21,280 nucleotides of DNA from a bacterium (lineage in GTDB: Bacteria > Blakebacterota > Blakebacteria > Blakebacterales > Blakebacteraceae). The DNA lies in assembly GCA_025774615.1 (NCBI GenBank), contig JALGVQ010000052.1, positions 1 to 21,280 of the forward strand, in the 5' to 3' direction. Below the pieces are notes generated by a model. That model ran no database searches. It was not told the DNA's origin and saw only the letters and a list, made by a program, of their open reading frames with translations. Shown piece by piece: positions 11,901 through 16,684 of this stretch. The position numbers were made by a program, and so were the translations under genes. Position 1 is the stretch's first letter, and the number at the start of each line of letters is the position of its first letter.

Positions 11901-12839
11901 TTACTCAGCCTTCTCTTCTTCGGCGTCTTCCTGCTTCTCCTCAACGGAGGTCTCTTCGGAAGTCTCTTCCACTGCGTCGACAGCCGGTGTCTCTTCCTTC
12001 ACCTCGACAGGCGCCTCTTCTTTCACTTCGGTTTCCGGAGCCTCAGCAACGGGTTCCTCTGCCACCACCTCGACATCAGGGGTCTCGACAACAGGCGCCT
12101 CTTCTTTCACTTCGGTTTCCGGAGCCTCAGCAACAGGTACCTCTTCCTTAACCTCGACAGGCGCAGACTCGACGACCGTCTCTGCTTTCTTCTGGCTCTG
12201 CCGGCGTTTCTCTACCTTGGTCCGGGCATCACTCTTGACCCGCTCCTGCTCATTACTACTGCGCTTCGAGGCGTCCTCAGCCTCCTTGAGCATCGTCGCT
12301 TCGAGGGCCGCCTGCTGTTTGTGCCAGGTCTCCTCTTTCACACCCAGAACTTCCCATATCTCGATACCACGCCGCTTTGCCACCTCGAGTGGTGCCTCAA
12401 GCGTCTTGAGGCCGTTGATCGTGGCGTGTACGACGTTGTGCGGATTGTTGCTCCGCATCGACTTGGTCAGGATGTTCCTGATCCCTGCCGCTTCCAGTAC
12501 CGCGCGAACCGGTCCACCCGCAGTGACTCCCGTACCGGGACCTGCCGGTTTGAGCAGAACACGTCCGGCGCCTGCGCGGCCGATCGTCTGATGAGGGATG
12601 GTCCCATTGGTGATCGGCACCCGGAACAGGCTCTTCCGCGCGTTCTCGTTGGCTTTACGGATGGCAGAGGCCACCTCGTTCGCCTTGCCGACACCGACTC
12701 CGACGATACCCTGCCTGTTTCCAACGGCAGAGATCGCACTGAAGTGGAACCGTCGACCACCCTTGACGACTTTGGCGGTCCGGTTGATATAGATGACCTT
12801 CTCTTCAAGGTCGAGATTTTCAGGATTGATCCTGGCCAC
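11901..12839 (-). CDS. rpsE: 30S ribosomal protein S5 with long acidic C-terminal tail
   Basis: Residues 1-170 are a complete uS5: [37 protein letters not shown], and [20 protein letters not shown]5 lines the mRNA entry channel and acts in decoding fidelity. About 142 further residues follow. Residues 171-219 are mixed-charge and rich in Lys/Arg/Glu/Gln, probably helical. Residues 220-312 are Glu/Val/Pro/Ala-rich with about 36 acidic residues and 6 Lys, and include a 15-residue segment present twice. Typical S5 is about 160-175 residues. The start is GTG, with AGGGAG upstream. The low-complexity 3' end abuts the lysine-rich 5' end of rpmD. Confidence 0.96.
12007..12134 (-). repeat. 44-bp exact direct repeat (period 84) in the S5 tail
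   Basis: The same 44 nt occur at 12007-12050 and 12091-12134. They encode the repeated segment [14 protein letters not shown]. The period is 84 nt (28 codons), so the repeat keeps frame. This indicates recent in-frame duplication within the acidic tail. Confidence 0.93.
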
Positions 12840-15733: not shown

Positions 15734-15994
15734 TCAAACCGAGGCCTTCTTGATGATCTCAACGACACGCCAGCACTTGGTTCGGCTCAATGGCCGGGTT
15801 TCTGACACCCGGACGATATCGCCCTCGTTGCACTGGTTCTCTTCATCATGCGCGTACAGTTTCGACCGCTTCTTGATGGTTTTACCGTACAGGGGATGCT
15901 GGACGAGTCTGTCCACCGTCACCACAACGGTCTTGTCCATCTTCGAACTGGTAACGCGACCCATCCGTACCTTGCGCGCTCCACCTTCGCTCAT
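15734..15994 (-). CDS. rpsQ: 30S ribosomal protein S17
   Basis: The 86-residue uS17 is an OB-fold protein that binds the 5' domain of 16S rRNA early in assembly. It shows [39 protein letters not shown] and the [15 protein letters not shown] end. The ATG overlaps the rpmC stop by 4 nt (ATGA), so translation is probably coupled to L29. Confidence 0.98.
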
Positions 15995-16233
15995 GCTTCT
16001 TCACCTCCAGCCACTGCTTCAGCTTCTGCCGGGCCCGTGGCTGCCTTCCGGTTTTCCTCGGCTATGATCGTTTCGAGCCGGGCGATATCCCGGCGGACGG
16101 CCCTGATCTCCAACGGATTCGAGACCTGCTGCATAACATGCCCGAACCGGAGGCCACGAAGCTCCTCTTTCAGGTCCGTGAGCCTGGTCACCATCTCATC
16201 GGATGGCAGTTCTCGTACTTCCGAGGCACGCAT
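15991..16233 (-). CDS. rpmC: 50S ribosomal protein L29
   Basis: The 80-residue uL29 is a helical hairpin protein near the tunnel exit, beside the docking site for SRP and trigger factor. It has [20 protein letters not shown], the core [20 protein letters not shown], and [18 protein letters not shown] short acidic Ala/Glu-rich tail of about 18 residues extends the usual 60-70. Its ATG overlaps the last base of the undamaged-frame stop of rplP (TAATG). The rplP frameshift therefore breaks what looks like direct stop-start coupling. Confidence 0.97.
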
Positions 16234-16249
16234 TACAATTCCTCCCGGG

Positions 16250-16684
16250 TCACGAACGCCGTCTTGATCGGCAGTTTGTGAGTAGCAAGACGGAATGCCT
16301 CACGGGCAATTTCCTCATCCACTCCTTCGATCTCGAACATGATCCGCCCCGGCTCACTCCTTCGATCTCGAACATGATCCGCCCCGGCTTCACCACGGCG
16401 ACCCAATGCTCCGGGCTACCCTTTCCCTTGCCCATCCGGGTCTCAGCCGGCTTGACCGTCAGGGGTTTGTCGGGGAATATCCTGATCCAGATCTTCCCAC
16501 CCCTCTTCACATACCTGGTCATCGCAACACGGGCAGATTCTATCTGACGGTTCGTGATCCACGCCGCCTCGAGCGCCCTCAGACCGTAAGCCCCGAAGGA
16601 GACCTTTACGCCCCCCTTGGCTTTCTTGCCTTTGAACGTGCCCCGTTGCTGTTTCCGGTATTTGATCCGTTTCGGTGCCAGCAT
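16250..16684 (-). CDS. rplP: 50S ribosomal protein L16, C-terminus lost by a 35-bp tandem duplication
   Basis: Residues 1-110 are perfect uL16: [20 protein letters not shown], a segment with [40 protein letters not shown] and [10 protein letters not shown]. Then the frame shifts and 34 unrelated residues follow to a TGA at 16250. The cause is a perfect 35-bp tandem duplication (16320-16389). Removing one copy gives a 138-residue L16 that continues [20 protein letters not shown] and stops at 16233, overlapping the rpmC start. L16 organises the A-site region of the 50S and its C-terminal part is highly conserved, so the protein as written is unlikely to work. Either the assembly is wrong or this is a real damaged allele. 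No second rplP is in the window. Confidence 0.93.
16320..16389. repeat. perfect 35-bp tandem duplication inside rplP
   Basis: Bases 16320-16354 and 16355-16389 are identical over 35 nt, head to tail. The flanking bases differ (16319 c against 16354 t; 16355 c against 16390 t), so exactly two copies are present. The length is not a multiple of three and it shifts the L16 frame. Confidence 0.97.

Follow-up and report, generated by a model that had tools for sequence, protein, structure and literature searches.

The rplP locus and its 35-bp repeat

The window, by which we mean the whole stretch of 21,280 nucleotides analysed here, corresponds to contig C28 of a draft genome that totals 3.30 Mb, is split into 324 contigs and is 82% complete; from this fragmentation and incompleteness we infer that the draft derives from a metagenome. 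The window holds a normal ribosomal protein cluster with the gene order S3-L16-L29 present, in which rplP lies between rpsC and rpmC, the neighbours being identified by sequence. Specifically, from low to high coordinates the locus comprises:

15991-16233, minus strand: rpmC (L29), an intact neighbour, named from gene order and sequence
16233-16340, minus strand: remainder of the L16 C-terminus in the -1 frame, 35 codons and a stop
16250-16684, minus strand: rplP (L16) as written, 144 amino acids, made up of 110 genuine residues and 34 off-frame residues
16320-16354, minus strand: 35-bp unit, second copy in gene order, which throws the L16 frame and is a clean 35-nt gap in genomes G001, G002 and G003
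16355-16389, minus strand: 35-bp unit, first copy in gene order, in frame with L16
16697-17392, minus strand: rpsC (S3), an intact neighbour, named from gene order and sequence

The two copies of the 35-bp unit are identical, stand head to tail, abut directly and have colinear flanks. At an offset of 35 the sequence matches itself over exactly 35 nt, with no extension on either side (an excess of 0), and by this self-match there is no microhomology beyond one period at the joint of the repeat. The duplication is not a product of chance, since random sequence would be expected to hold about 1e-6 perfect tandem repeats of at least 20 nt per Mb. It is the only perfect tandem duplication of such size in the window that does not belong to a repeat array, and its distance to the nearest contig end is 4.9 kb.

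The genuine L16 C-terminus continues in the -1 frame, where an ATG stands at 16340, and its TAA ends at 16233, where the rpmC ATG begins (TAATG). The uL16 family profile (Pfam PF00252) matches both parts colinearly, namely the reading frame leading up to the duplication and the C-terminal piece that follows; no full-length match in one frame was obtained at the rplP of the window, where two overlapping frames are needed. The first-pass annotation had described this arrangement from the letters of the window, and its account of a perfect head-to-tail duplication at 16320-16389 proved accurate in every coordinate and frame. That account included a frame shift after L16 residue 110 with 34 aberrant residues following, a 35-residue fragment opened by the ATG at 16340 that covers the missing C-terminus, and an L16 stop overlapping the rpmC start.

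The remaining repeats in the window are imperfect 15-nt and 42/84-nt arrays, which lie in extensions of L30 and S5. L30 (11332-11898, minus strand) has a long, lysine/alanine-rich N-terminal repeat extension of KKTAAKK units of 15 nt, which is like a histone H1-type tail; this array looks natural, because there is a similar 15-nt array in G001 (L203:9382-9575). At the C-terminus of S5 (11901-12839, minus strand) there is a long acidic extension containing the 42/84-nt repeats, and acidic glutamate-rich tails are also found on L3 (19865-20875) and on an S6-like protein of another contig (L179:664-1347).

L16 in relatives and in the rest of the draft

In G001, which belongs to the same genus, L16 is intact and has 138 residues. 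Using phmmer, we found one unbroken L16 frame in 99 of the 99 other loci checked (G001 and 98 others), whereas the frame in the window breaks after residue 110. When G001, G002 and G003 were aligned to the window, a clean gap of 35 nt opened in each at the site of the duplication.

These comparisons bear on the idea that the duplication is fixed and that the organism makes L16 either in two pieces (a 110-residue body and a 35-residue fragment starting from the ATG at 16340) or by a programmed -1 frameshift that would add 12 residues. The -1 frame is indeed open across the second copy and the ATG is present, but L16 is a single unbroken frame in the relatives examined, and neither the duplication nor the sequence after it contains a -1 slippery heptamer. 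No zero-frame slippery heptamer was found within the overlap of the two L16 frames, and the nearest two (16427 and 16424) are located upstream, at a point from which the -1 frame runs into a stop before it reaches the duplication. We therefore consider a split or frameshifted L16 very improbable, in agreement with the first-pass annotation, which had mentioned a split protein and thought it unlikely.

Another proposal would be a true loss of function of this gene, tolerated through another rplP in the organism. As the draft is 82% complete, a second copy could be missing from it, but a search of its 324 contigs found no second rplP, and both matches to the L16 family are the two halves at the window locus. 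Moreover, the C-terminal codons left stranded still appear to be under protein-level constraint, to a degree similar to that of the N-terminal part: against G001, the 35 C-terminal codons comprise 21 identical, 10 synonymous and 4 nonsynonymous codons, and the N-terminal part 58 identical, 31 synonymous and 9 nonsynonymous. Such constraint would mean that the L16 C-terminus was translated until very recently, or still is, and it argues against a dispensable rplP, a reading to which we give very little credence.

Blunt duplications across the assemblies

We searched 100 stretches of the window genome, with 794 kb readable, and 20 stretches of G001 (129 kb), and counted perfect two-copy tandem duplications of at least 20 nt with no more than 2 nt of excess match. 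Beyond the 35-bp duplication of the window, its genome yielded ten (21, 21, 27, 32, 33, 37, 38, 39, 54 and 76 bp), and G001 yielded six (22, 24, 43, 47, 61 and 66 bp). The control consisted of 543 kb taken from other genomes at 98 loci, which have the ribosomal cluster at their centre and are mostly distant from contig ends. In this control we found no blunt two-copy duplication; its repeats were either short or belonged to arrays with a larger excess match. If mid-contig duplications alone are compared, their absence from this control has P = 0.006, with the control still biased to ribosomal loci. Nor was any such duplication present in small samples amounting to 79 kb read from G002 and G003.

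The joints of the 17 duplications are blunt, as expected without homology: the excess match is 0 nt in 13, 1 nt in 3 and 2 nt in 1, where a joint formed without homology predicts 0, 1 and 2 nt at 56, 28 and 11%. The duplications are also enriched near contig ends, 9 of the 17 being within 500 bp of one, whereas 10.7% would be expected there (P = 2e-5). For G001 the figure is 5 of 6 (P = 7e-5), and the distances of 222-345 bp would be compatible with gap filling or with the extension of contig ends by read pairs. In eight of the 17 the length is a multiple of 3 (P = 0.17), and a few of the in-frame ones may be real.

Other conserved genes are broken in the same way, with two halves that stay recognisable and colinear. 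In the window genome, a blunt 76-bp tandem duplication (contig C27, L129:3814-3965) interrupts der, the only gene for Der/EngA found; the C-terminal KH-like domain, the only KH domain of that kind in the genome, continues in another frame. In G001, two blunt duplications, of 47 bp (L206:234-327) and 61 bp (L211:223-345), lie roughly 220-235 bp from contig ends and interrupt topoisomerase I (topA) and a class I/II aminotransferase. Several further duplications are in frame, within HemC-HemD, RmlD, PAC2 and Nth-like genes, and some of these could be real.

One gene for a ROK-family sugar kinase carries two blunt duplications, of 54 bp (L192:4972-5079) and 37 bp (L192:5362-5436).

Perfect short tandem duplications arise through replication errors and readily revert. 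It is thus conceivable that a real 35-bp tandem duplication is carried by part of the population, as a strain mixture or a transient slippage allele, and was taken up by the consensus; its identical copies would make it recent. The repeat resembles duplications formed by slippage or microhomology in that identical copies some tens of bases long stand head to tail, but it differs from them in lacking microhomology at the joint, which slippage usually leaves, and in sharing its signature with many loci of one assembly that cluster near contig ends. The slippage-prone allele offered as an option by the first-pass annotation is likewise hard to reconcile with a joint of this kind. Furthermore, broken versions of several housekeeping genes would have to dominate the consensus simultaneously. 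We regard a partial-population duplication as unlikely.

It might also be supposed that tandem duplications of 20-80 bp, blunt and free of homology, truly build up genome-wide in this genus, essential genes such as rplP and der included, and that the genus copes with the split or frameshifted products; this strikes us as scarcely credible.

The origin of the second copy

We propose that the second 35-bp copy in rplP is an assembly artefact, an overlap left uncollapsed at a join, and by our estimate the probability that this is so is roughly 0.88. An assembly or consensus error had headed the options listed in the first-pass annotation, and it is favoured here because there are many similar blunt duplications, because these are enriched near contig ends, and because they break other housekeeping genes. 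Two contigs or graph segments that are truly adjacent and share a 35-bp overlap would have been joined without the overlap being collapsed, so that it was written twice. The join may have been made during scaffolding, gap filling or end extension, and at 4.9 kb from the contig end the window copy would represent an internal join. At this distance the clustering near contig ends does not bear directly on the window copy, and the case for it is therefore one of analogy, in which it would have been made in the same way as the other duplications.

For an artefact of exactly this kind, the literature found was limited to a general paper on metagenome curation. Local assembly errors in metagenomes include scaffold joins made despite overlapping flanks, which leave duplicate sequence (Chen et al., 2020; PMC7111523). 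The rplP duplication shares with those errors duplicate sequence at the putative join, colinear flanks, broken coding genes and recurrence across one assembly; it differs from the published case, in which Ns separate the copies, in that its copies abut without Ns. Contig C7 has the one 11-N gap that was found, and no hidden overlap adjoins it.

The main value of these observations is one of caution. In drafts with uncollapsed overlaps, housekeeping genes will look like pseudogenes when they are not, and this can distort completeness estimates and pseudogene counts and can mislead protein databases. Indeed, uncorrected assembly errors are known to spread wrong protein sequences into databases (Chen et al., 2020; PMC7111523). 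Such errors may be flagged without reads by scanning for perfect two-copy tandem repeats with zero excess match, together with their distance to contig ends. As for L16, the earlier statement that the duplication destroys its C-terminus is true of the record but probably not of the organism. Every relative examined has a single-copy, intact L16, and most likely the organism itself has one copy of the 35-bp unit and an L16 as ordinary as theirs.
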